Positions 15,847-30,020 of a DNA stretch of 49,552 bases are shown here, piece after piece. Below the pieces are notes generated by a model, which was given only the letters and a program-made list of their open reading frames with translations, had not been told where the DNA came from and searched no databases. Origin of the DNA: Thermoproteota archaeon (GTDB lineage Archaea; Korarchaeota; Korarchaeia; Korarchaeales; Korarchaeaceae); assembly GCA_027492205.1 (NCBI GenBank), contig JAOZFN010000003.1, positions 1-49,552 of the forward strand, in the 5' to 3' direction. Position numbers and translations under genes: made by a program. Each line of letters opens with the position of its first letter. Position 1 is the first letter of the stretch.

Positions 15847-17324
15847 TAGAGTCTCCGGACGAATTGTTCGTGCTCGAGGAGAACGCCGAGTGGCTGGGAG
15901 TCACCCGCCTGCTCATGATGGAGAACGCCGCCGGGGCCGTGGTCAGGGCCGTGGAGGAGGTCCTGGGCGGCACGCTGAGGGACAGGAGGGTGTTCGTGTT
16001 CTGTGGGAGGGGGAACAACGGCGGCGACGGAATAACGGCGGCCAGGAGGATGGCCGCGCTCGGCGCCAGGGTCACGGTTATACTCGCGGGCGATCCTTCA
16101 GCAAGAGAGGCCTCCTACAACTTCGGGGTCATTAAGAGGGGAGTCTCCGTTGAGATCCGCCGCTATCCCGACCTCCCCGATGGGGAGCCCGACGCGGTGG
16201 TTGACGCCCTGCTGGGCACCGGCGTGAGGGGAGCGCCCAGGGGGGTCGTTGCCCAGGCAATCGAGGTCATCAACTCTCTGGGGGCCAAAGGGATCCCCGT
16301 CATTGCCGTCGACGCGCCCTCCGGCCTGAACCCGTTTACCGGCGAGGCCCCTGGCGCAGTCGTCAAGGCCAGCGTGACGGTCACGTTCCACGCCAGAAAG
16401 CCCGGGCTCAGGTCCGACCTCTGCGGGAGGGTGATCGTCGCCGAGGCGGGCGCGCCCGCGGAGTCGCTCCTCTACTGCGGCCCGGGAGACGTGAAGGTAA
16501 TCCTAAAGCCGAAGAGACCTCCTTGGTCCCACAAGGGGGACTTCGGCAGGGTTCTAGTGGTCGGCGGATCCTCGCGGTACACGGGGGCCCCGGCCATGGC
16601 CGCGATGGCCGCCCTGAAGGCCGGCGCCGATCTGGTGTCCATCGCCGCCCCCCGCTGGGTTTCCGCGACGATAAAGCCAATCTCGCCCAACCTCATCGTC
16701 CTCCCCTTGGAGAGTCAGGATCGGCTAGGGTCCGACGACGTGGACCTCGTGATCAGGGAGGCAGAAGGCGCCGACGCGGTCCTGCTCGGTCCGGGCCTTG
16801 GGGCAGATTCTGAGACCATCAGGTCGGCCGGAGAAATCTTGGGGAGGCTGAGGGATCTTGGAAAGCCGACGGTCGTCGACGCCGACGGGCTGAAGGCCGT
16901 CCCTCAGGACGGGGGGTGGCCCGGGCTGGTGATAACGCCACACGCAGGCGAGTTCCGGAGGATATTCGGCGAGGCTCCGGGCCCCGAACTCGGAGAGAGG
17001 GTGGGCTCCTGCCTACGCGCGGCCCGCGAACTAGGGGGAACGATTCTACTGAAGGGCCACGTCGATGTGATATGCTCTGGTGAAAGGGTGAGACTAAACG
17101 TCACGGGAAATCCCGCCATGACGGTAGGCGGGACGGGTGACGTCCTATCAGGCGTGACCGCCGCATTCCTGGCCATGTCGGGGAATCCGTTCAGGGCCGC
17201 CTCTGCCTCAGCGTTCTTGGTTGGACTGGCCGGAGACCTGGCGTTCGAGAGCCTCTCGTACTCGCTGACCGCCCAGGACGTCCTGGAGCACATACCGACG
17301 GCCCTCAAGAGGATAGGCTACTGA
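15843..17324 (+). CDS. nnr: Bifunctional NAD(P)HX epimerase / dehydratase
   Basis: Repairs hydrated NAD(P)H. The N-terminal YjeF-like epimerase (about residues 1-210) has CGRGNNGGDG and DALLGTGVRGAPRG. The C-terminal ribokinase-like ADP-dependent dehydratase (about 215-490) has KGDFGRVLVVGGS, GPGLG, VVDADGLKA, ITPHAGEF and GGTGDVLSG. It is 493 aa from GTG 15843, which overlaps the tyrS stop by 4 bases; an ATG at 15795 lies inside tyrS and is less likely. It is the last ordinary gene before the CRISPR island. Confidence 0.93.
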   Translation: MIESPDELFVLEENAEWLGVTRLLMMENAAGAVVRAVEEVLGGTLRDRRVFVFCGRGNNGGDGITAARRMAALGARVTVILAGDPSAREASYNFGVIKRGVSVEIRRYPDLPDGEPDAVVDALLGTGVRGAPRGVVAQAIEVINSLGAKGIPVIAVDAPSGLNPFTGEAPGAVVKASVTVTFHARKPGLRSDLCGRVIVAEAGAPAESLLYCGPGDVKVILKPKRPPWSHKGDFGRVLVVGGSSRYTGAPAMAAMAALKAGADLVSIAAPRWVSATIKPISPNLIVLPLESQDRLGSDDVDLVIREAEGADAVLLGPGLGADSETIRSAGEILGRLRDLGKPTVVDADGLKAVPQDGGWPGLVITPHAGEFRRIFGEAPGPELGERVGSCLRAARELGGTILLKGHVDVICSGERVRLNVTGNPAMTVGGTGDVLSGVTAAFLAMSGNPFRAASASAFLVGLAGDLAFESLSYSLTAQDVLEHIPTALKRIGY

Positions 17325-17626
17325 CGAGGGGCATAAGCCGAGACCGACGAGTGGAGGGCCCCGTCTGACCCGGTCCTTCGCTGGCCGGAAGGATCCCCAG
17401 AGAAAGTAATAAGGACCGGCGAGGGGAGTCCGCTCAGGGGACTATGAGCGATAGCTCCACAGCCTGATCTTGTGACGAGACTCTCCGCTACCGAGTCCCC
17501 CTCAACGACCTTAACCTTCTTGAGCTCAAATCCGGATCACAAAAGTCGCAATCCAAAAAAGTGAGGAGAGGCAAGATAGGGCAAGGAAGAAAGCGCGTTC
17601 TGGCCTCTCAGACACCTGCTCAGCCC
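17325..17626. other. Gene-free stretch before the TnpB remnant
   Basis: No gene can be supported here. On the minus strand it follows the decayed tnpB end and would be the right-end (omega-RNA/terminal) region of an IS200/IS605-type element, but neither a clear hairpin end nor a target-site boundary is recognised. A minus-strand frame of about 70 codons from near 17542 down to 17330 is open but resembles no family known to me. Confidence 0.3.
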
Positions 17627-17880
17627 CTACAAGCCGTTCTGAGGGGTCTTTCCCTGTCTGGTAGAACCTTCATTCAGGGCTTTCTGGGGGAACGGATCCT
17701 CCCCACATCTCGCAGCCTCTCCTCACTACGTTCATGGCCCCAACGACACCGCGATCGCCTTCGAATCCGCACCGTCGGCACTTCAATATCCGGAGCCACT
17801 TTAAGCAAGTTTGGCCTACACATCGGATATTATGATGGGGTCCCCTTGGGATTTACGTGAGCACCTTGCGGCCATATTTG
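17627..17880 (-). pseudogene. tnpB: TnpB C-terminal fragment, decayed (IS200/IS605 family)
   Basis: Remnant of a TnpB RNA-guided nuclease in three reading frames. The order is a VNPKGT segment with an in-frame TAA (17830-17832) and YPMC, then the zinc-ribbon CRRCGFEGDRGVVGAMNV in a second frame, then a KALNEGSTRQGKTPQNGL tail in a third frame ending at a TAG (17627-17629). Intact family members read CxxCGFxADRDVxxAxN; here the residue after the DR is Gly, so a catalytic-region Asp is also lost. The N-terminal three quarters of the protein is missing: the fragment abuts a truncated CRISPR repeat at 17881/17882. At least two frameshifts and one stop make it non-functional. Confidence 0.85.
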
Positions 17881-17881
17881 C

Positions 17882-20484
17882 CAGTCGGGGCCTGATTGCA
17901 ACGTCGGCAGGATCGACCGGAAGCCCGGCAAGTTCTACTACGTGGACAGGTTTTAATCGCCCCCTCAGTCGGGGCCTGATTGCAACCGATCTATTCTCCA
18001 CGTATCCATACCTATACATCGGCGGCCCAAAGGTTTTAATCGCCCCCTCAGTCGGGGCCTGATTGCAACGGCTGGACCTCCTCCCCGTCGACTGGCTCCC
18101 GCCGGAGGTCTCGTTTTAATCGCCCCCTCAGTCGGGGCCTGATTGCAACTTTCACGTAGATGGGTGAATCAGTCCACACAGTAAGGCGTATGTTTTAATC
18201 GCCCCCTCAGTCGGGGCCTGATTGCAACTCCTCGCGTTGCCAGCGTGCAGGTTGGTGCAGGTCACCCTGTGTTTTAATCGCCCCCTCAGTCGGGGCCTGA
18301 TTGCAACATGGACGTCAGTTCCCGCCCCCACCCGCCGGCCCTCGTTAGTTTTAATCGCCCCCTCAGTCGGGGCCTGATTGCAACTGGACCGACGCCGACG
18401 ACGGAATAGACATAGACGATTACGATGCCTATGAGTTTTAATCGCCCCCTCAGTCGGGGCCTGATTGCAACTACGGCTACCTGGCCGCCAGGGGCGCGGT
18501 GATAAGGGTCTGGCCCGCCGGTTTTAATCGCCCCCTCAGTCGGGGCCTGATTGCAACCTGGCTTCGCAGTGATACAGCACCGCACTTGGCAGAAGTTCAG
18601 TTTTAATCGCCCCCTCAGTCGGGGCCTGATTGCAACGTCCGGCTTTTCGTCGGCCACCTTCCTCCACAAACTGCGCGAATAGTTTTAATCGCCCCCTCAG
18701 TCGGGGCCTGATTGCAACTCGGCCCGACCCCGGCCGCCGTCTCGGCGTCCCCCCCGGGTTTTAATCGCCCCCTCAGTCGGGGCCTGATTGCAACCTTCTG
18801 TGGCTCAAGTTCAGGGGGATTCCGGTCAAGCTTCACCCTGTTTTAATCGCCCCCTCAGTCGGGGCCTGATTGCAACCGGGGGCGGGTGGTAGTATATGTA
18901 GAGTCCGGGTTGCAGAGTGATCGTTTTAATCGCCCCCTCAGTCGGGGCCTGATTGCAACTATCGCGAAGACCCTTACAGTAACCGCGAAGTTTGCGGGAA
19001 CGGCGAACTAGTTTTAATCGCCCCCTCAGTCGGGGCCTGATTGCAACCCAGAGGCCGGACTTCACCTCGAACCCCACGCTGACGGCCACGTCGGTTTTAA
19101 TCGCCCCCTCAGTCGGGGCCTGATTGCAACGTGTTGTCAACCGTGCAGTATGACGGCAGGTCGTCTGGATCGTTTTAATCGCCCCCTCAGTCGGGGCCTG
19201 ATTGCAACAGGACATGGAAGCCTACCTGTACTACGTCCCACCGGGCTTCAGGTTTTAATCGCCCCCTCAGTCGGGGCCTGATTGCAACTGGTCGTGAACG
19301 AGTCGATGACGCACATAGCTGCCTCCGCGTTTTAATCGCCCCCTCAGTCGGGGCCTGATTGCAACGTGTCGCTCGGCACGGTGAAGTCGTAGTAGTAGAT
19401 GCCCGGTTTTAATCGCCCCCTCAGTCGGGGCCTGATTGCAACGAGGGAGGCTCTGGAAGTACGGGTACGGATACACGGGCCTGACGATTGGTTTTAATCG
19501 CCCCCTCAGTCGGGGCCTGATTGCAACCGCGAGCTGGAAGATAGTGAAGGATCAGAGCGGGTACGTCAAGATATACTGTTTTAATCGCCCCCTCAGTCGG
19601 GGCCTGATTGCAACCTATGTCTCCGCGCTTGTCATGAAGAGTTGGAGCGGCAGTTTTAATCGCCCCCTCAGTCGGGGCCTGATTGCAACTTATAGTCGCG
19701 GGGGCCGCGGCGGTGCTGAGAGCTAAGTTTTAATCGCCCCCTCAGTCGGGGCCTGATTGCAACGAGGTAGTCGCGGCACTTGATTATGTATCTGTACTGC
19801 TTTGCGACGAGTTTTAATCGCCCCCTCAGTCGGGGCCTGATTGCAACGCGAGGAATGGCCTGACGCCCGAGTCGCGGCACGAGATACTGCTGTTTTAATC
19901 GCCCCCTCAGTCGGGGCCTGATTGCAACAGGTCCACCCAAGTTTTGACGTGCGGCTGCACTTGGGCGGGTTTTAATCGCCCCCTCAGTCGGGGCCTGATT
20001 GCAACGCGAGGAATGGCCTGACGCCCGAGTCGCGGCACGAGATACTGCTGTTTTAATCGCCCCCTCAGTCGGGGCCTGATTGCAACGGTAGTAGTAGAGG
20101 TGGTGGTGGTGGGGTGGAGCTAAAGGGTTTTAATCGCCCCCTCAGTCGGGGCCTGATTGCAACGTCTTATAAGGCTAAAATCTGCTCGTGTATGGAGGTG
20201 TGTGGCGTTTTAATCGCCCCCTCAGTCGGGGCCTGATTGCAACTACGAGGGTTACATGTCTCGCGGGGAGTTCTTAAGGTGGCTGGTGAGTTTTAATCGC
20301 CCCCTCAGTCGGGGCCTGATTGCAACTCTTTAAGAGTGCAGAGGAGCTCCAGTCAAGTGGATAGTCTATGTTTTAATCGCCCCCTCAGTCGGGGCCTGAT
20401 TGCAACCGAGAAAAGGTTTCTCTGCTCTGAATCGATTTACGATATTGGTTTTAATCGCCCCCTCAGTCGGGGCCTGATTGCAAC
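17882..20484 (-). CRISPR. CRISPR array, 32 spacers, 37-bp repeat
   Basis: There are thirty-two identical 37-bp repeats plus one truncated 21-bp copy at 17882-17902. Full repeats start at 17950, 18033, 18113 and so on to 20448. Spacers are 37-51 nt. Read on the minus strand the repeat begins GTTGCAATC and ends GATTAAAAC, with a GCCCC/GGGGC hairpin and a 7-nt loop. Minus-strand transcription is inferred: the truncated copy is at the low-coordinate end, while the other end has a leader-like region with a TATA box. The plus reading (ending ATTGCAAC) cannot be excluded from the repeat alone. Spacers at 19848-19891 and 20006-20049 are identical. Confidence 0.97.
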
Positions 20485-20691
20485 CCTCGCTCTACCTAGC
20501 TACTCTCCCCGGACGCGACTAGGAGGCTACGTCTCTATCTCGGTCATAGCGCTGATCGAGGTTTTCGGTCCGGACCTTATAAAGATCAGCGCGATTCCAC
20601 AGTATTGCCTCCTTCCTGTACTAACGAAATCGTTAGTGCGCAAATGACGAATATGCAACACTTTTTCTACAACATAGTGCACCTACACTAT
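20485..20691. promoter_or_regulatory. Array leader and csa3 control region
   Basis: This 207-base region separates the array from csa3. CCTTATAAAG at 20575-20584 can be read as a TATA box on either strand: toward the array on the minus strand, with about 90 bases of leader, and toward csa3 on the plus strand. Two perfect dyads follow on the csa3 side: ACTAACGA-2 nt-TCGTTAGT at 20620-20637 and ACATAGTG-6 nt-CACTATGT at 20672-20693. The second reaches the GTG start of csa3. They are placed as operators for a repressor such as Csa3. Confidence 0.6.
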
Positions 20692-21360
20692 GTGACGGTT
20701 AGGCGTAGGCTTTTCTCCACGGCCGTGGGGTATAGCGAACAACTGATGCTGAGAGCTTATCTAGCCGTAGGAATTAGAGAGGGCGATCGCATTCTCTTAA
20801 TAAGGTCGGAAAAAGAGGATGATCAGGCTAGGAGAGCTGAACATAACTTTAGAACGCTGATTGAGGGCCTGAGGCCTGGAATAGACATAGAGTCAGTTTC
20901 CATGGATCCGATGGATTTCGAGGGTAACACGGTGAAGCTGGTGAGGTTGTATGCCGAGGCTAAGAAGTCTGGATACTCCATTGTGGTGAACCCAATAGCC
21001 GGGCTCAGGGCGCTCGGCCTAGTCCAGATCCTCGCCCTAACCTTCGTTGGTGGTCAAGCAACCATCCATCTGGAGACGGGGGGAAGCGTAGAGTTGGTGA
21101 ACATACCCAGCTTTACTCCTCGCATAAGGGAGGAGAGGATAAGGGTTCTCATGGCAGTTGGGAGGGATAAGGGGCCTAAGCAGGTGGCAGAGGAACAGAA
21201 TATCACCCTACCTACGGTCTACAGGCATCTGAAGTCCCTTAGGGGTGAAGGTTTGCTGGACGGCTCTGGGAGGCTCACCATACTCGGGAGGGGCCTGATC
21301 GAGCTCTACCGGTGCGGGCTCATTTCTCCCGCTGCACGGAAATCGAATCATGTTAATTGA
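20692..21360 (+). CDS. csa3: Csa3 CRISPR transcription regulator (CARF + winged HTH)
   Basis: Regulator of type I-A CRISPR loci that senses cyclic oligoadenylate-type ligands through a CARF domain. The N-terminal Rossmann-like part has the family start FSTAVGYSEQL, VVNPIAGLRAL as the conserved ligand loop and a strand/helix pattern to about residue 140. A winged helix-turn-helix follows (KQVAEEQNITLPTVYRHLKSL). GTG 20692 is preferred because it gives the normal Csa3 N-terminus; the longer TTG frame from 20605 covers the two dyads. It is first of the plus-strand cas block and may control its own promoter. Confidence 0.88.
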   Translation: MTVRRRLFSTAVGYSEQLMLRAYLAVGIREGDRILLIRSEKEDDQARRAEHNFRTLIEGLRPGIDIESVSMDPMDFEGNTVKLVRLYAEAKKSGYSIVVNPIAGLRALGLVQILALTFVGGQATIHLETGGSVELVNIPSFTPRIREERIRVLMAVGRDKGPKQVAEEQNITLPTVYRHLKSLRGEGLLDGSGRLTILGRGLIELYRCGLISPAARKSNHVN

Positions 21361-21424
21361 ATTTACATCTTGTTGATAGAATCAGTTAAATTACTCTGGG
21401 AATCACTAGACTCAGGTCGGCCCT

Positions 21425-21847
21425 ATGTCCCTAGCAGGTGCGAGCAATAGGGCTCGGCTGGTAACCCTTCTCGAGGAAGATCCAGGCATCTACTTCTCCT
21501 TCAGAAGGGTTGCTGGCGTCCTACACTTCGTCGTCGAGCATGGAAGCATAAAGAACTACTTCCACGAACTAAAGCTCCTCGGGGTTGACCGTCCAGAGAG
21601 GTTTTCGTATATACTAGCCAGGGCCTTCGAGGAGTTCAGGAGGGAGATTCGCGAGGAGCCCATGAGACGTGAGGCACGAGGCGTCCTGAAAACCTTCGGC
21701 TTTAGGGAGGGTAGCGATCTTACGAGAGATTTTGAGGTCGTAACGAGGCTATACGTTCAGTACGGGAAAGAACTCCTTAACCAGCTCTTGGCCACAGTAT
21801 CGGCCCCATGCCCTGTTTGTGTGAGCGAGGTGATTGAAACTGGGTAG
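21425..21847 (+). CDS. csa5: Csa5-like small subunit of type I-A Cascade
   Basis: Small, mostly helical 140-aa protein directly upstream of cas7, the normal position of the Csa5/Cas11 small subunit, which stabilises the Cascade-target complex. The assignment is mainly positional; sequence resemblance is weak. A CPVC pair sits near the C-terminus. A TATA-like GTTAAATT at 21385-21392 lies about 33-40 bases before the ATG, so the interference operon may have its own promoter distinct from csa3. Its end overlaps the TTG start of cas7. Confidence 0.6.
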   Translation: MSLAGASNRARLVTLLEEDPGIYFSFRRVAGVLHFVVEHGSIKNYFHELKLLGVDRPERFSYILARAFEEFRREIREEPMRREARGVLKTFGFREGSDLTRDFEVVTRLYVQYGKELLNQLLATVSAPCPVCVSEVIETG

Positions 21848-22922
21848 CCCACTCGATTTTGAGCCCAGGTATATGAGCCTCGCCGCGAAGTTGGTTTTGA
21901 ATGTTCACGACCTCAACAACGAGAGAGCTGAGGAAATTAGAACAGTCCCCGTCATTTACGAGGTTAACGGGCGTTGGAAGATCGTCTCTGAGGCGGTGGC
22001 CGTAAGCGGACAGATGCTCAAGCACTGGCACTTAGCCTCGATGGTAAACATCGCTGAGGCGCGAGATCTCATTGACAAGGTGGGCTTTTGCGGTAGATGC
22101 AGAAAGAGGGAGGGGATCAGAGTCTCAAGGGACGATGCCGTCGCTCTCGCCAAGAGGCTAAGCAAACAACCTAAGAACCTCACGGAGAAGGACATAATCG
22201 AGGCTTGCGCAGGTGAGGATGTCCACGGCTTCCTCTTGACAAACCCCATTACAATCAGAAGGGAGTCTCTGGTTAGATTCTCTTGGATGCTTCCCTGTTT
22301 CTTAGAGGAGGCTTTGGAGAGTTCGGGGACGGTAACCCCATACAAGGTTGTCATCCACACTAGGAACGTGAGGGCCCCAGGGAAAGGCGCATCTGACGCA
22401 AGCTCTAGCGAGACCCGTGATGAAGGAGGCTTGACCTCAGAGGAATACCAGTCCGAGAGGAGGACTCCCGAGCAGATGCCGTTCTACAGATCGTATGCAT
22501 CAGGCATATATGGATTTATTTCAACTGCAGACTTGGCTCACATCGGATTTTCATTTAACGACTTAGAGCCCATAGGAAATAAGGAAAGGGTGATGTTGAG
22601 GAGAAAGCTCCTGATAGAGGCCTATGCGCCCATGCTATCAGGTCTCGGGGCATCTCTCTCTAGAGCTCTGCCGGCGTCGGCCATACTGGAGCTCATGGTC
22701 GTCTTCAGCGACGGACCTCTGCCAGCACCGGTGCATCCAATATATCCAAGCTACCTAGAGCGAAATATCAGACTCTACCACGATCAGGCCAAGGCCTTGG
22801 GATCAAATCTCATGGTGTTCCTGTGGACCAAGGAACCAACCGACCTGATGAATAGAGAAGCTGAATTCCCGAGACTTCGAATCGTTGGCAGCCCCGTAGG
22901 CTGGATAGGGGAGGTGATCTAG
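21834..22922 (+). CDS. cas7: Cas7 (Csa2) Cascade backbone protein
   Basis: RAMP-fold subunit that polymerises along the crRNA. The family features are an N-terminal LVLNVHDLNN strand, RTVPV, the AVAVSGQMLKHWHLASMV helix and the FYRSYASGIYGFISTADL segment. It is 362 aa, longer than Sulfolobus Csa2 (about 320). The extra length includes a CGRC cysteine pair near residues 86-89 and a low-complexity S/E-rich loop (about 180-210). TTG 21834 overlaps the previous gene by 14 bases; ATG 21873 is an alternative starting at MSLAAKL. Confidence 0.88.
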   Translation: MKLGSPLDFEPRYMSLAAKLVLNVHDLNNERAEEIRTVPVIYEVNGRWKIVSEAVAVSGQMLKHWHLASMVNIAEARDLIDKVGFCGRCRKREGIRVSRDDAVALAKRLSKQPKNLTEKDIIEACAGEDVHGFLLTNPITIRRESLVRFSWMLPCFLEEALESSGTVTPYKVVIHTRNVRAPGKGASDASSSETRDEGGLTSEEYQSERRTPEQMPFYRSYASGIYGFISTADLAHIGFSFNDLEPIGNKERVMLRRKLLIEAYAPMLSGLGASLSRALPASAILELMVVFSDGPLPAPVHPIYPSYLERNIRLYHDQAKALGSNLMVFLWTKEPTDLMNREAEFPRLRIVGSPVGWIGEVI

Positions 22923-22949
22923 CTCAAGAAATCCTGAGAGTTCTTTAGG

Positions 22950-23915
22950 GTGCTGGCCTTGAGGCTCGTCGCCGTCGGTGGGTCCATGCTGATACCCATG
23001 TTTTCAGCGAGGGACCCCCTCTCTCACGGCGTCAGACTGTCGTATCTCCTCCCGCCCCCAACTACCCTTCTTGGCGCCTTTGGATCCGGTCTCGGCCTAA
23101 CTCTCGGCATTCCAAGAGGTGAGTGCCCGGCAGGGGGTAGGCAGGTCAGAGACGTACTGAGGTATGCCCTCGAAGAATCCGCGTTGGCGATCGTTAAGCC
23201 CGAGGGCCCCATAATCAAGTCTGCTCAGATGTGGAAGCTTGTTAACTTAGAGAAGGAGAGCACCTCCAAGTCTAGTAAGAAAGAGTCGGAGAGGGGCTTA
23301 CATGACGCATTCGAGGCTGAATACATCTCTTCCTCAAAGATCGGCCTTACGTTCATCGTGGACCTAGACCTCTTGAGCGAGGGACTATCTGAACTGGCCT
23401 CATCCGCGTGCGCGGACCCCACTATTAGATCCGTTGGTGACGTGGGGCTGGGTCCAGAAGACCTTGTGAAGGCTATTACGCTCATGGATAGGTTGGGCTC
23501 GACGGAGAACCTTGGGAGAGTCACACATGCCTCTCTACTTTCGATAAAGAACGTAGAGACTTCAGGCTTGCTTGACTCCTGTGTGCCCTTAGAGTGGATC
23601 CAATCCGTAGAGGCAGCGAGGCCTCACGAGTCGGCCGAGCAGATCATCCTGCCAGTAAACAGATTCGTGTCTAACCGCGTGAGATCCGCTAAGGCAGATA
23701 AGATCAAGGGTAGAGAGTGGTCCCGAGTATGGTTCTTGGCGCCCCTGAGGCCCGGTACCAAGAGGATGAGGGGTAAGCGCATCCCTGTGTACGAACCAGC
23801 GCCGATCAGGGTGCAGGCCAATGATGGTTACGTCGTGGCGACTCTGGAGGATCCTAAGGGCGAGTTGAGGTTCGTCACCGTTCTCCCAGAGGACATCGCT
23901 AGGGAACTGGGGTGA
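22950..23915 (+). CDS. cas5: Cas5 (type I-A)
   Basis: RAMP-fold Cascade subunit that caps the 5' handle of the crRNA. The N-terminus has the Cas5 signature: hydrophobic strand, FSARDPLSHGVRLSYLLPPP and TTLLGAFGSGLGL with its glycine-rich turn. It is 321 aa, long for Cas5a (about 240-260), with a charged S/K-rich insert near residues 100-120. GTG start 27 bases after cas7. Its stop overlaps the start of cas3' by 4 bases. Confidence 0.85.
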   Translation: MLALRLVAVGGSMLIPMFSARDPLSHGVRLSYLLPPPTTLLGAFGSGLGLTLGIPRGECPAGGRQVRDVLRYALEESALAIVKPEGPIIKSAQMWKLVNLEKESTSKSSKKESERGLHDAFEAEYISSSKIGLTFIVDLDLLSEGLSELASSACADPTIRSVGDVGLGPEDLVKAITLMDRLGSTENLGRVTHASLLSIKNVETSGLLDSCVPLEWIQSVEAARPHESAEQIILPVNRFVSNRVRSAKADKIKGREWSRVWFLAPLRPGTKRMRGKRIPVYEPAPIRVQANDGYVVATLEDPKGELRFVTVLPEDIARELG

Positions 23916-25798
23916 CAGCTTTGGGCGAGTGGCTCCGAGACGTAAAGAAGGTCTACGAACTCGCCCACCAAAGACCATTCAGACCTCGGCAGGCGCAGGA
24001 GGTCGCCATAGATGGCATGGAGAGGGCTTTCGAAGAATTCAGCGAAGGCGATGAGGTCAGACCCATACTGGTCAGGCTGCCAACCGGTTACGGCAAGACG
24101 CTGGTGGGCCTGTCTGCAATGATTCACCAGGCCGCCTCCGGCCGCTGGTTAACCCGAGGGCTGGTCTATACTCTCCCTACGAGGACCCTGACCCGAAGGC
24201 TCTGGGAGAGCTCAACGAACTTGCTGAAAGCCGCAGGTCGCGGGTTCCGCCGCGAGGGAGAGGCTCAACTTATGGGGCCCTACCGCGCAGTCAGAGAGTT
24301 TCATGGGGGCAACCTAGATGCGTCTCACTTCGCCGCCACGGTGGCGGTCAGTACGTTCGATGTCTTTGCGCTGGCCTACGCCCGTAGGAGCAGGGCGGGA
24401 TTTCACTTAGAGCTCCCAGCGGGCGTGATAGCGACCTCATACGTGGTCTTCGATGAGGCCCACATGCTGAGAGACGACTACTCCTACACTCACCTCGTCA
24501 TGGGGAGACTCGTGAGACATCTAACATCGGCCGGAGTTCCCGTGGTGGTGATGACGGCCACGATGCCTAGGACCCTGGAGGAGATGGTGTTCGACGGAGA
24601 GGAGCCCATCAGACTCCCTGATGATCAGTCCTACTTTGGTACAAAGGAAGAAGAGTACAGAGGGAGGATCAAGTCGATTGAGCTTCAAGATTTTGAGAGC
24701 GAAGGCGCTAGCGTGGAATATGTCGTAGAGTTCGTGTCAGAAAACCTTAGGAGGGGAGATCGGCGGATCTTGCTAATTCTAAACGAGGTAGGCCGGGCCA
24801 TTCTGTTCTACAAGCGGCTGGCGAAGGAGTTGGGGGGTAAGGCCAAGGTAGGCCTGATCCACTCCAGAATATACAAGCAGGATAGGGACAGGAGGGAAGC
24901 TGAGGCATTTCGTGCCCTAGGAAAGGAACCTGAGGGCCCTTACGTACTTGTCGCCACACAGGTCGTGGAAGCTGGACTCGACGTAAGTTCTGATCTGCTC
25001 ATCACCGACTGCGCGCCGCTAGACTCCCTCGTTCAGAGGCTTGGGAGGTGCGCCAGATGGCCTGGAGAAATAGGAAACGCCTTAATTCTCAGATATCCCA
25101 AAGTGGGGCGTCCCTACCCTCAAGATCTCGTGGATGAGTCCTGGGAGGCTCTGAGAGACGCTAAGTCTGACGGAGAAAGGGCCAACAACTTGCTAGACCC
25201 AGCCTATGTCATGAGAAGTCTGGACGATGTCTATCAGGGTCTGGCAATAAAGCCCCTCTCCTCAAGGTTGGAGGAGTACCTTGCGTACTTGGACGGCCTC
25301 GGCTTGACCACCTTCTCGGCGAACAGGAACGTGATGAGGACCGTCATGGCGAGGCCGGATGCCTTCTTCACGTTGGTCGTTCCTGCGGGGAGGTTCGAGA
25401 TATTTGAACTGTCGAGGGGCGAGGACTGTTGGACCGTGGCCATGGAGCGCGTTACAGACTACTCGGGCGTTCTTGAGGGCTTGAGAGAAGGTAAGGTGGT
25501 TGCATTAGAGGCTCTCTGGGCCATGAATCACAGCTTCTCCGCGAACAGGAGGGTCGTGAAGAGAGGGGACGAGTTCAGGCCCTTCGTGCTGCATCAGATC
25601 ACCCCTAATGGTGGGAAGCAAGCGATAGAGCTGAGGCTAATTCAAGCCTTCCGAGGTGGAGACCAGATCTCTCTCTACGCTCTTAAGAGAGCCGAGGAAA
25701 TCCCGTGGGAGGGCATATTCCTCCTGAACCCAGAGATGTATGACGAAGAAGCAGGATTGGGCGTTATATCAAGGGAGGGTGAGCAGAATGCCGATTAG
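23912..25798 (+). CDS. cas3: Cas3' helicase
   Basis: Superfamily 2 helicase that unwinds target DNA during type I interference. Walker A is LPTGYGKT (residues 56-63), motif II DEAH (181-184), motif III TATMP (215-219), and motif VI in QRLGRCAR; VATQVVEAGLDV is motif V. No HD domain is present: the nuclease is a separate gene, as in subtype I-A. At 628 aa it exceeds typical I-A Cas3' (about 500), with an extra C-terminal domain after about residue 500. GTG 23912 overlaps cas5 by 4 bases; the end overlaps cas3'' by 11. Confidence 0.92.
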   Translation: MTALGEWLRDVKKVYELAHQRPFRPRQAQEVAIDGMERAFEEFSEGDEVRPILVRLPTGYGKTLVGLSAMIHQAASGRWLTRGLVYTLPTRTLTRRLWESSTNLLKAAGRGFRREGEAQLMGPYRAVREFHGGNLDASHFAATVAVSTFDVFALAYARRSRAGFHLELPAGVIATSYVVFDEAHMLRDDYSYTHLVMGRLVRHLTSAGVPVVVMTATMPRTLEEMVFDGEEPIRLPDDQSYFGTKEEEYRGRIKSIELQDFESEGASVEYVVEFVSENLRRGDRRILLILNEVGRAILFYKRLAKELGGKAKVGLIHSRIYKQDRDRREAEAFRALGKEPEGPYVLVATQVVEAGLDVSSDLLITDCAPLDSLVQRLGRCARWPGEIGNALILRYPKVGRPYPQDLVDESWEALRDAKSDGERANNLLDPAYVMRSLDDVYQGLAIKPLSSRLEEYLAYLDGLGLTTFSANRNVMRTVMARPDAFFTLVVPAGRFEIFELSRGEDCWTVAMERVTDYSGVLEGLREGKVVALEALWAMNHSFSANRRVVKRGDEFRPFVLHQITPNGGKQAIELRLIQAFRGGDQISLYALKRAEEIPWEGIFLLNPEMYDEEAGLGVISREGEQNAD

Positions 25799-26627
25799 GA
25801 CATTCTCTTGCCGATTTGCGGGAGAATGCGTCTTCAGGGGGCGAGAGTTCTGCGGAGATGGTGAGGCACCTGCCACCCTCCCGCTGAGATCTTATCACCC
25901 TGACCCCTCTAAGGGGGAACTCCCAGAGTGCTACGTTCACCACATCGCTAGGTCGCTCGAATTCTGGAGGTCACAGAAAGACAGGTTTGCCCGTAGCCTG
26001 GCGCGGCTGATGAGGCACTCCCTCGGCCTTGAGCTGAATCGGGATCAAGTCGTCGACGCAGTATCTCTCCTTGTGGCCCATCACGATGCTGGTAAGCTCA
26101 CTAGAAACTATCAGGAGGGGGTTAGAGGATATAGGCACGAACTGATAAGCGCGTTTTTGCTCTGGGATCGGGCCCTCATGCTAGGGCAGGAGTTTGGATT
26201 AGGCGAGGCTGACAGGATGCTACTTGCAGCCGCTCTCACCTCGGCTTGCTATCTACACCATGAGGCTATACAGGTAATGTTTCGCATGTGGGATGTGAGG
26301 GCGCCGACATATGGGGATCTCCTGTCAAGACTGAGCAGATTAGAAGTGGAGACCCTCCCGTATGCTAAAGAACTCGTGGAGTGGCAAGAGAGGGAGGCCA
26401 CTGGCAGGATCTTAGGCCACTTTGACTGGCCGCGTTGCATCAGAGGACGGGAAATGGTTTCAAAGTTGGCTAAAGCTGTGACCCTGGTCGACGGCGCGGC
26501 CAATCCCGTAGAAGTGAGGATGACAGTCTCGGCTCTTCTCTTGGCGCTCACGTATGCGGATAACGTCGCAGCAATGCAGAGGGGAGGGGCCGTGCGCAGC
26601 TTCCACAGGGCAATATTGGGGGTATGA
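25788..26627 (+). CDS. Cas3'' HD nuclease
   Basis: Stand-alone HD-family nuclease that degrades target DNA with Cas3'. Metal ligands are visible: YVHHIARS (His 51/52), AHHDAGK (His 99, Asp 100), YRHEL (His 117) and YLHHEA. It is 279 aa from ATG 25788, which has a strong ribosome-binding site (GGGAGGGTGAG) a few bases upstream; a longer in-frame start at 25740 is rejected for that reason. The N-terminus has three closely spaced cysteines (residues 8, 14, 22), an unusual extra that might bind metal. Overlaps cas8 by 4 bases (ATGA). Confidence 0.9.
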   Translation: MPIRTFSCRFAGECVFRGREFCGDGEAPATLPLRSYHPDPSKGELPECYVHHIARSLEFWRSQKDRFARSLARLMRHSLGLELNRDQVVDAVSLLVAHHDAGKLTRNYQEGVRGYRHELISAFLLWDRALMLGQEFGLGEADRMLLAAALTSACYLHHEAIQVMFRMWDVRAPTYGDLLSRLSRLEVETLPYAKELVEWQEREATGRILGHFDWPRCIRGREMVSKLAKAVTLVDGAANPVEVRMTVSALLLALTYADNVAAMQRGGAVRSFHRAILGV

Positions 26628-28201
26628 ACTTGGCGGAAGTTACGTACCGGAGAACTGGCGATAAGATCCTCGATTCCCTCGTTTTGGCGGCCCTCACAGA
26701 TCTGACAGAGAGGCTGCGAGGAGAGGTTGAGTGGTATCCCGTAGATCCCCTCGGCGAGCCAAGTCTGATCAGGGTGAGCCTCCCTCAGGCCAAGACTGCA
26801 CTCGAAGTCAGGACTCAGCTGGCGCGAGAACTCGCCAGGGCCGTTAGGTCCTACTTTGTTGGCAGATCTCTTAGCGCGATTCGAGTTAATACCGGTGGTC
26901 GGGGAAAGCCGATTGAGAGGGATTTTTGCCTGTTCTGTTCCATGAAAAGCAGGCATAGGTGCCCAAGCGTAGACCTACTCGAAGCTGTGCGTGCGTTCGC
27001 AGAAAGCCCCACCGAGCATGCCCGGGAGGACAAGACGAGCACCCTTCTATCAGAGGTGGAACTTCAAGTGGCCTCAGAGTTGCTATTGTTTGTCGGCAGG
27101 GAGGGATTGGTCCTCGACGATCTGAAGGGAGGCGTCAAAAGGGGCCTGGAAGACTGTATGAAGAGACAAGATCCTTACAAGTTGCGCGAGATCTTAAGCA
27201 GACTAGGTAAGAAAGAGTTGAAAAAGATCAGGCTGAGGAGCCCATATCAACTCTTCTCCTTCTTTCCGTCAGGGATGAGGAAAACGAGGATCTCCGAGAT
27301 CAAGAATATCCCTGGGGGGCCGAATCCACCTCCCTATCTGATCTTAAGGCTCATCGTCAACGAATTAGCCCGCAGCGGGTCTCTAAATGAGTGGTCCCCA
27401 TTCGCAGTGTCTAAGGGGAAAACTAGCGGAGCAGAATCTCTCTATATATTCTTGTCTCCATACTGGTCAAAGGGAAAGTACGTATGGGACGGCAGGTATG
27501 AATCATCGTCTTCCTCCGTTCCGAGACAAATAGCCGCTCTGGCGCTCTACGGGACGTCGTTGCTAGGCCTATCGTGGCTGGCAGGCGTAGCGGTCTCTTT
27601 ACTCCTTATCCCACCTACACTCCCAGCGAACCACGCAGCGGCGGTGAAGCAGCTGAGCTTAGCCAGGCGGTTCGTGCGACTGACGAGCTTCGGCGAGTAC
27701 CAGAGCTATATTCTAGACAGGCGGATCTTGGCGTCACTGCCAGGGAGAGTTAAGTATCTTCCGATACTGACGAACTTGGACATTCCAGCGTTGGCAGAGC
27801 TTGCTAAGGGCGGATGGAAGTTCCTTCTAGTTGAGTTCGACACTAGACAAGGGATGCCTCAAAACCCAAGAAACTTCAGGGAGGAGGATCCAGGGCAGCT
27901 GGCAAGGTTCTTGATCGACTTGGGAGAGCACTTCAGCGAATTCAGAGAATGGATTCACTTCCTTATGAGCGCGTTTAGAATGGAAAAACACAGGAGAGAA
28001 GCGTCTGAAGTTCTGCTGGAGATAAGGAATGCGATAGTGTTTGGAGATCCATCGCGACTATCCATCGCGCTTGATAGATCGCTTAGGTTAGTCAAAACCA
28101 ACAATAGCCTAAGCTGGGGGATTTATGCTATCCCAAGAGGGAAGGCAGTCTCTCGAATGATCGAAGCAATTCAGAGGGCGGAGTCCGAGGTGTCGGATTG
28201 A
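26624..28201 (+). CDS. cas8a: Cas8 large subunit (type I-A)
   Basis: Large subunit of Cascade, expected to recognise the PAM and recruit Cas3. Assignment rests on position (between cas3'' and cas6), 525-aa length and the cysteine cluster FCLFC...RHRC (Cys 102, 105, 113), similar to the zinc site in many Cas8 proteins; overall sequence is divergent. A hydrophobic segment near residues 305-335 is probably buried rather than membrane-spanning. ATG 26624 overlaps the cas3'' stop. Function is inferred from context more than from sequence. Confidence 0.72.
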   Translation: MNLAEVTYRRTGDKILDSLVLAALTDLTERLRGEVEWYPVDPLGEPSLIRVSLPQAKTALEVRTQLARELARAVRSYFVGRSLSAIRVNTGGRGKPIERDFCLFCSMKSRHRCPSVDLLEAVRAFAESPTEHAREDKTSTLLSEVELQVASELLLFVGREGLVLDDLKGGVKRGLEDCMKRQDPYKLREILSRLGKKELKKIRLRSPYQLFSFFPSGMRKTRISEIKNIPGGPNPPPYLILRLIVNELARSGSLNEWSPFAVSKGKTSGAESLYIFLSPYWSKGKYVWDGRYESSSSSVPRQIAALALYGTSLLGLSWLAGVAVSLLLIPPTLPANHAAAVKQLSLARRFVRLTSFGEYQSYILDRRILASLPGRVKYLPILTNLDIPALAELAKGGWKFLLVEFDTRQGMPQNPRNFREEDPGQLARFLIDLGEHFSEFREWIHFLMSAFRMEKHRREASEVLLEIRNAIVFGDPSRLSIALDRSLRLVKTNNSLSWGIYAIPRGKAVSRMIEAIQRAESEVSD

Positions 28202-29001
28202 TGCCTGCCTTCGTGACTGTCAAGTTGTACCCTTCAACCACATTGATCTACGAGATCCCGTCCTCAGGCAAGCTGGCTCAGAGCTTATTCTTCAAGACCC
28301 TTGGATCGGCCGACCCCGAGTTAGCGCGCGAGATCCATGACGATCCTGCCTGCTCTGGTCTCAGCGCTCCATACGCCGTGAGCAGAATAACCACGGGTAG
28401 GCAGTACGTCCATGGGATATCTGCGGCTGTTGCGCCCGGGGATCATGTGAGGCTGACTGTAAAGCTCCTCAGGGATGACTTGCTTGACCCACTTCTGAGG
28501 GGTCTGGCATCGGGGGAGTTTGAGCTTAATCGTGTCCCAGTAACCCCAATGGAGGTCAAGTTTCACAGAAAGCGCTACGACGACCTGTGGAGAGACAGTC
28601 CTATTGCGCGGAAGGTTTCCTTTAGGTTCCTGACTCACGCTCTCATTGGAAAGGCCTTCCCGCCGTCCCTTAGCACTCTCCTTGAGAGACCCATAGCCGC
28701 TTGGAATGCTTGGGCTCCGGAGTACCTGAAGTTTGACGAGGAGCACCTTAAGGGTCTCGAGCTGGCCGCTCCTACATCGCCCAGTTGGCTGAGAGAAGGT
28801 GCCGTGAGATTGTGGCATGGAACGCAGAGGAGAGAGTACATAGGTTACTTGGGGCAGCTCACCTACGACCTGAGGCGACTAGACTCCTTCTCCGGCAGGA
28901 TCCTAGCTACTCTCGCAAGGTTTTCTGAGTTCTCTGGGATAGGCACTAAGACTACCATGGGATTTGGCGTTGTAAGGGTTAGTCTCGGAGTTTGGAGGTA
29001 A
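28201..29001 (+). CDS. cas6: Cas6 crRNA-processing endonuclease
   Basis: Cuts the pre-crRNA within the repeat and usually leaves an 8-nt 5' handle. It is 266 aa, close to the family norm. The C-terminal glycine-rich loop GIGTKTTMGFGVVRV is the Cas6 hallmark, and tandem RAMP folds are consistent with the strand pattern. ATG 28201 shares its A with the cas8 stop; TTG 28198 is also possible. It is the last gene of the cas block and converges with the L10 gene. Confidence 0.88.
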   Translation: MPAFVTVKLYPSTTLIYEIPSSGKLAQSLFFKTLGSADPELAREIHDDPACSGLSAPYAVSRITTGRQYVHGISAAVAPGDHVRLTVKLLRDDLLDPLLRGLASGEFELNRVPVTPMEVKFHRKRYDDLWRDSPIARKVSFRFLTHALIGKAFPPSLSTLLERPIAAWNAWAPEYLKFDEEHLKGLELAAPTSPSWLREGAVRLWHGTQRREYIGYLGQLTYDLRRLDSFSGRILATLARFSEFSGIGTKTTMGFGVVRVSLGVWR

Positions 29002-29132
29002 AGTAGATTTCTTAGATTCCTTAGTTTAGTCATGAGTAACTCAAGCCCTAGACCTTACTAATTGGCGTATTCAGCGCTAAACATCGTGCTGAGAGACTGG
29101 GATCGCTCGAAATGACTCTCCATTCGAAAAGA
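29002..29132. other. Convergent spacer between cas6 and L10
   Basis: 131 bases between two converging stop codons. T-rich runs just after cas6 (about 29006-29031) could end the cas transcript. No L12 gene or fragment of one is found here. Confidence 0.4.
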
Positions 29133-30020
29133 TCAGGAGGAGAGGCCGAGGGCGGCCTCCAGCGCCCTCGCCCTTGCGGCCGCCTTCCTCAGGATGAGTT
29201 CGGCGGTCTTAGGCGATACCCACCCGATCTCGCTGGCGAGGGCCAGCGCCTTCTGCGCCGCCCTGGCCACGATGGGCTCGACGGTCTTGTCCGTGACGAT
29301 GCCCTGCTCGACGGCCAGCGATATTCCGGCACCGGCGGCCCTGCTCAGCTCTTTCAGTATCTCCTCCCTCGTCTTGGCGAGCACTTCCGGGGACCAGAAG
29401 ATGCCCTCCTTGTCCACGGCGCCAGAGACCTCAAGCCTGACCTCGACCGGCTTTATCCCGAGGGCCTTCAGTATCTCCGCGATCTGCGCCTGGACCTTCT
29501 CGCCCCTCTTGACTATCACGAAGTCCTCGGAGATGGATATCTTGCCCCCCACGATCTTGGTGGGGACGCCAAGTGCCCTGAGGTCGGTCAGTATCGGGCC
29601 TGGGGCCAGGTCCGTGGGTCCGGCCGGTATCACTATGTCCTCCTTCGCCACCTCCCCGGGCATTATGTCTACGTTGACCGTTTTCTCCCTGAGCTTCTGG
29701 TAGAGCCTCCACGGGCTCTCCTTGCTGAAGATTATCATGAGCCTCTGCGGCACGTGGTCGAGGAGCTTGTTCAGTCCCTCCCTGAAGTCGACCTTTGAGA
29801 AGGCTATCGGGACTAGCCTCTTCTTCACGACCATCAGCTTCGTGTCCGGGGCGAGCTCCTTTCTGATCCTCTGCAGGAAGTCCGCCGGGGATCTTCCAAA
29901 GTCGGCGAACATGACCGTTGGGAACTCCTTGGCTCCCTCGACTATCTTGCGAACCATCTCCTCCTTCCTGAGCCTGGCCGGGCTCTTCCTCTTCCTGGCC
30001 CTCACTTCCGCGGAGCTCAT
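29133..30020 (-). CDS. rpl10: Large ribosomal subunit protein L10 (P0)
   Basis: Stalk base protein that anchors L12 dimers to the ribosome. It is 295 aa. The N-terminal RNA-binding domain includes MFADFGRSPADFLQRIRKEL-type elements and the middle P0 domain is present. Three consecutive amphipathic helices at the C-terminus (about residues 215-293) form the L12-binding spine. The usual acidic tail ending in a GLxxLFG-type motif is missing: the protein ends at ALEAALGLSS. ATG 30020 overlaps L1. No L12 gene follows, unlike most archaea. Confidence 0.92.
   Translation of the reverse strand: MSSAEVRARKRKSPARLRKEEMVRKIVEGAKEFPTVMFADFGRSPADFLQRIRKELAPDTKLMVVKKRLVPIAFSKVDFREGLNKLLDHVPQRLMIIFSKESPWRLYQKLREKTVNVDIMPGEVAKEDIVIPAGPTDLAPGPILTDLRALGVPTKIVGGKISISEDFVIVKRGEKVQAQIAEILKALGIKPVEVRLEVSGAVDKEGIFWSPEVLAKTREEILKELSRAAGAGISLAVEQGIVTDKTVEPIVARAAQKALALASEIGWVSPKTAELILRKAAARARALEAALGLSS

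Follow-up and report, generated by a model that had tools for sequence, protein, structure and literature searches.

The locus considered here raises the question of why a CRISPR array should stop in the middle of a repeat, directly against the tail of a tnpB gene. It lies in a window of 49,552 bp, which is the whole of contig C10 of an archaeal genome of 1.94 Mb in 17 contigs. The features on which the argument turns are the following.

17324 to 29133, no strand: interval between nnr and rpl10, 11,808 bp in the window, holding the island
17440 to 17505, plus: C/D-box-like small RNA element, from an alignment with L011, L015, L017, L018 and L020
about 17628 to 17881, minus: C-terminal tnpB remnant, ~79 residues (about 324–402 of 402), interrupted by frameshifts and an in-frame stop
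17882 to 17902, minus: truncated trailer-end CRISPR repeat, the first 21 nt of the sense repeat kept and the last 16 nt missing
17882 to 20484, minus: whole CRISPR array, 33 repeats (32 full and 1 truncated)
17903 to 20484, minus: the array without its cut repeat, with 32 perfect repeats of 37 bp and 32 spacers of 37–51 bp
20485 to 20593, minus: leader, with a promoter-like box, GCGCTGATCTTTATAAGG, common to both arrays of contig C1
20605 to 29001, plus: cas operon of the type I-A kind, from profile matches (Pfam, NCBIfam, PADLOC), in the order csa3, ORF 21425 (csa5 position), cas7/csa2, cas5a, cas3', cas3'', ORF 26624 (cas8 position), cas6

The junction of tnpB and the last repeat

The repeat of the array, GTTTTAATCGCCCCCTCAGTCGGGGCCTGATTGCAAC, occurs in 32 exact copies between 17950 and 20484, and the locus has the identical repeats, the unique spacers of even length and the one-sided leader of a CRISPR array. 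At its left end, the piece at 17882–17902 matches the repeat at 21 of 21 positions, whereas the 16 bases preceding it agree with the missing part of the repeat at only one position. The repeat is therefore cut abruptly and not worn. This supports the view of an earlier note on this DNA that an abrupt break accounts for the partial repeat better than slow decay, a contrast being offered by two diverged repeat-like units beyond the trailer of the array at C1:71541. The exact 21-mer, CAGTCGGGGCCTGATTGCAAC, is found 33 times genome-wide, every time in the window array, and its reversed pattern, used as a control, has 0 occurrences in the whole genome.

On the other side of the breakpoint, which falls at 17881/17882, lies the tnpB remnant. 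With the genome's own intact TnpB (L006, contig C11) as the reference, tblastn places residues 337–402 at 17822–17628 on the minus strand (53% identity, E 5.8e-14) and, as a weak piece in another frame, residues 324–337 at 17859–17818; blastn of the remnant against the L006 gene gives 78% identity over 107 bp (E 1.5e-17). The remnant also matches the Pfam profile Cas12f1-like_TNB (PF07282) at E 6e-8, with 33.1 bits against a cut-off of 26.3, a score obtained from hand-joined frames with an X at the stop, a single frame reaching 20.4 bits only. The alignment to a full TnpB and the profile match both bear out the earlier identification of the fragment, which contains the C-terminal zinc-finger domain of IS200/IS605-type TnpB. 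Similarity in tblastn extends to within 22 bp of the break, and the ~22 bases from there to the junction (KYGRKVL-like) resemble TnpB on visual inspection alone. That the partial repeat sits directly against the fragment is thus confirmed, with the coordinates of the remnant corrected to about 17628–17881 on the minus strand, and the claim that the break falls inside tnpB coding sequence and also inside the repeat finds support in the tblastn alignment and in the repeat comparison.

The remaining four-fifths of tnpB, its 5'/N-terminal part, is absent from the window by tblastn with L006; the full RuvC nuclease, with its N-terminal and middle parts, is lacking, and the piece is a remnant rather than a working member of the family. 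An orphan 5' piece, for which the earlier note had proposed looking, was not found elsewhere in the genome either: PF01385 (OrfB_IS605) matches just the two intact copies, but given the shortness of this domain and the weak match of one of these copies, absence is not proven. The remnant is related to the tnpB copies resident in the genus (L006, L010). As for the ends of the element and an omega RNA, the 3' flank of tnpB, compared with L010 and L006 (29 and 542 of 1000 shuffles, respectively), is not clearly above shuffles, and an apparent GGCCAGAACG motif, considered as marking the transposon's right end near 17596, was set aside as not clearly better than shuffles.

Orientation of the array and the cut end

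The 18-bp box, GCGCTGATCTTTATAAGG, is found to the right of all three arrays, the two of contig C1 and the one in the window, its side relative to the repeats being constant. Measured from the 17th base of the box, the repeat is 90, 75 and 91 bp away in the three arrays, the last value being that of the window. Because of this shared position, and because the sense repeat of C1 ends in ATTGAAAG, a known 3' motif of repeats (CRISPRDetect, PMC4869251), the window array is taken to read on the minus strand without reservation, with its leader on the right and the cut repeat at the trailer, or oldest, end. A leader on the left, suggested by the ATTGCAAC end of the plus-strand repeat, is ruled out by the right-side box of the three leaders. 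The proposal that 17882–17902 marks the lost end of the array is likewise supported, the position of the leader making this the trailer end. In this orientation, crRNAs are expected on the minus strand, starting with ATTAAAAC, and for the spacer at 17903–17949 a crRNA whose 3' end is either unprocessed or trimmed would be expected.

In a folding comparison with shuffled sequences, the full sense repeat does better (z −2.6), unlike the truncated repeat joined to tnpB (z +1.0). Because the cut repeat forms no better hairpin than shuffles in this comparison, the final spacer unit is probably without a normal Cas6 site. It is the only unit that would have no complete repeat hairpin downstream for Cas6, and the expected effect is small; the remainder of the array should be unaffected, its leader end and 32 whole repeats being intact, and the array is presumably still functional. 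Partially deleted or degenerate leader-distal repeats are on record in the description of CRISPRDetect (PMC4869251), beyond which searches of the literature on trailer ends yielded nothing. As in those cases, the last repeat far from the leader is incomplete; the difference is that here the outside sequence can be named, as the tail of a tnpB gene.

The island and the origin of the junction

In the relatives G002, G004 and G006, the stop of nnr is separated from that of rpl10 by 11, 2 and 5 bp, respectively. In the window this separation is 11,808 bp, and by this comparison of gene order the array, the cas genes and the tnpB tail lie within inserted DNA, a CRISPR-Cas island. This island (array, cas operon and tnpB remnant) is ~11.5 kb long and of lower GC, with 51–57% in the cas genes against about 58–68% outside it. 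The assembly of the sister genome G001 breaks inside nnr and has no rpl10, and gives no verdict on the ancestral state. No direct repeat or target-site duplication was recognised at the edges of the island (the longest shared exact word, 10 bp, was taken as none), and no 5' part of tnpB was found at its right edge (29002–29133). The earlier note mentions neither this island context nor the leader nor the minus-strand orientation of the array.

The conserved block at 17440–17505 has a counterpart between tyrS and rpl10 in relatives from another genus of the family, and the copy in the window is diverged (ATGAGCGA, ACCGAG). Its C/D-box reading was made by eye, with no Rfam match, as was the case for Rfam over the whole of 17000–21000.

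The simplest account begins with the array as the memory of a type I-A-like module, which forms the island between nnr and rpl10. The leader at the right end of the array directs minus-strand transcription, so that the left end is the old trailer. A tnpB gene of the IS200/IS605 kind, on the minus strand, may first have stood just beyond this trailer. A single illegitimate join would then have connected an internal site of tnpB with one in the last repeat, taking 16 nt of the repeat, possibly more repeat-spacer units, and four-fifths of tnpB from its 5' side. The tail of tnpB would have decayed afterwards by frameshifts and a stop, or its decay may already have been under way. That one such join, most simply a deletion from tnpB into the last repeat, made the junction is the explanation to be preferred, and a reasonably probable one. 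The interpretation of the earlier note, in which the remainder of tnpB went missing along with that of the array end or the two were joined by recombination, is supported in part: the abrupt join stands, and a joint loss is less certain, as the junction may equally be the left boundary of a CRISPR-cas island joined into tnpB.

Such a boundary is a tentative alternative of lower probability. In it, a horizontally transferred CRISPR-cas module would have been joined by illegitimate recombination into a tnpB resident between nnr and rpl10, the junction being the left boundary of the incoming island and the same join having cut the last repeat. This fits almost as well as a later deletion, as the junction does sit at the left edge of the island, the island has the lower GC, its neighbours are otherwise syntenic, and the remnant is related to the genus-resident copies L006 and L010. 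An insertion into tnpB should, however, have left the 5' part of the gene at 29002–29133, where it is absent, so that an extra deletion is needed, and the flanks have no direct repeat longer than the 10-bp exact word. The event may have been a deletion, which is favoured because one step suffices when tnpB and array are already side by side, whereas the boundary requires the further loss of the 5' part of tnpB. No relative with this repeat (24 in the family and 29 in the phylum; it was found in its own genome only) or with an intact tnpB at this site was found, nor the intact element or longer array that the earlier note had suggested seeking in related genomes.

It is very improbable that the trailer repeat decayed slowly in the ordinary way and that an unrelated tnpB remnant came to abut it by chance. 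Degeneration is frequent in trailer repeats (PMC4869251), and the array at C1:71541 has its two diverged units beyond the trailer end, but the 21 kept bases here are perfect, the next 16 are at chance level, and the similarity to TnpB runs to within 22 bp of the break. That arrays are difficult to assemble would speak for a chimeric join at 17881, yet this is highly unlikely because nnr, on the left side, and rpl10, on the right side, are direct neighbours in G002, G004 and G006; the break moreover lies within the contig, and 21 bases of repeat stand on the tnpB side of any overlap-based join. Hardly any probability attaches to a scar of self-targeting, in which a lost spacer against the neighbouring transposon (or a TnpB guide RNA against the array) would have left survivors that deleted spacer and target together. 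The junction of tnpB and repeat is a real but ordinary rearrangement scar at the edge of an acquired CRISPR-Cas island.

Both sides of this scar have known counterparts. In Haloquadratum walsbyi, internal deletions of IS200/IS605-type elements leave short C-terminal tnpB remnants (PMC3119063), in which, as in the window, the C-terminal end alone survives, with frameshifts and stops; the deletions there are within the elements, whereas the other side of the break here is a CRISPR repeat. Mobile elements also meet and disturb CRISPR arrays, as do a MITE in H. walsbyi (PMC3119063) and an IS21-family element in Xanthomonas citri (PMC6889575), but those elements keep intact ends and have array units to either side, neither of which is true here. 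A type V-like partnership of TnpB and CRISPR was considered and rejected, and there is no support for a functional tie between TnpB and CRISPR, because the gene is a broken 3' remnant at the far, trailer end of a type I-A-like array. Little functional effect of the junction is expected. Its value is modest, in that it settles which way the array reads and which end was lost, and shows the module to be an island separating two genes that otherwise adjoin.

The cas operon and the second CRISPR locus

Cas7/Csa2, Cas5a, Cas3', Cas3'' and Csa3 are all present, as is typical for type I-A, with Cas5a and Cas3' above the NCBIfam type cut-offs and Csa2, Csa3 and Cas3'' below them. The operon resembles type I-A CRISPR-Cas in having csa3, cas7/csa2, cas5a, separate cas3' and cas3'', and cas6, and differs in its lack of adaptation genes: no cas1, cas2 or cas4 was recognised at the window locus, and cas1 and cas4 are found only at a second CRISPR locus on contig C1, which has arrays at 71541–77790 and 84531–86169 and the sole Cas1 of the genome at C1:82551. 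The ORFs at 21425–21847 and 26624–28201, which fit Csa5 and Cas8a in place and size, have no significant family in Pfam, NCBIfam or PADLOC and are possibly very divergent csa5 and cas8a subunits. A search of genome contigs with Csa2 reached only distant loci (31–37% identity), of no use for synteny. Just before csa3, at 20620–20640, stands a palindrome, CTAACGAAATCGTTAG, which could serve the regulator Csa3 as an operator.

Spacer 3 of the window (18070–18112, 43 bp) differs by one end base from a spacer of C1 (about 74078–74119, 42 bp). The two have the same sense and are flanked by different repeats, and are likely independent captures from one source by one common machinery; a spacer common to two arrays is on record in Haloquadratum (PMC3119063). 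The shared leader box and the one shared spacer suggest that the window module relies on the adaptation genes of another locus. The whole array has no match among phages and plasmids, and the repeat piece and two spacers have none among viral contigs. Within the window array, spacers 25 (19848–19891) and 27 (20006–20049) are identical over 44 bp, a duplication.

At the second locus, the two repeat-like units beyond the trailer end of the 78-repeat array lie at C1:71390–71502 and are of another sequence (CTTTCAACCCTGCCGCAGGAGGCGGCAAATCTGCTTC and a divergent version of it). Between cas6 and cas1, at C1:79066–82539 (L073 6567–10040), there are three ORFs, one of which encodes an ATPase with weak BrxD-like similarity.
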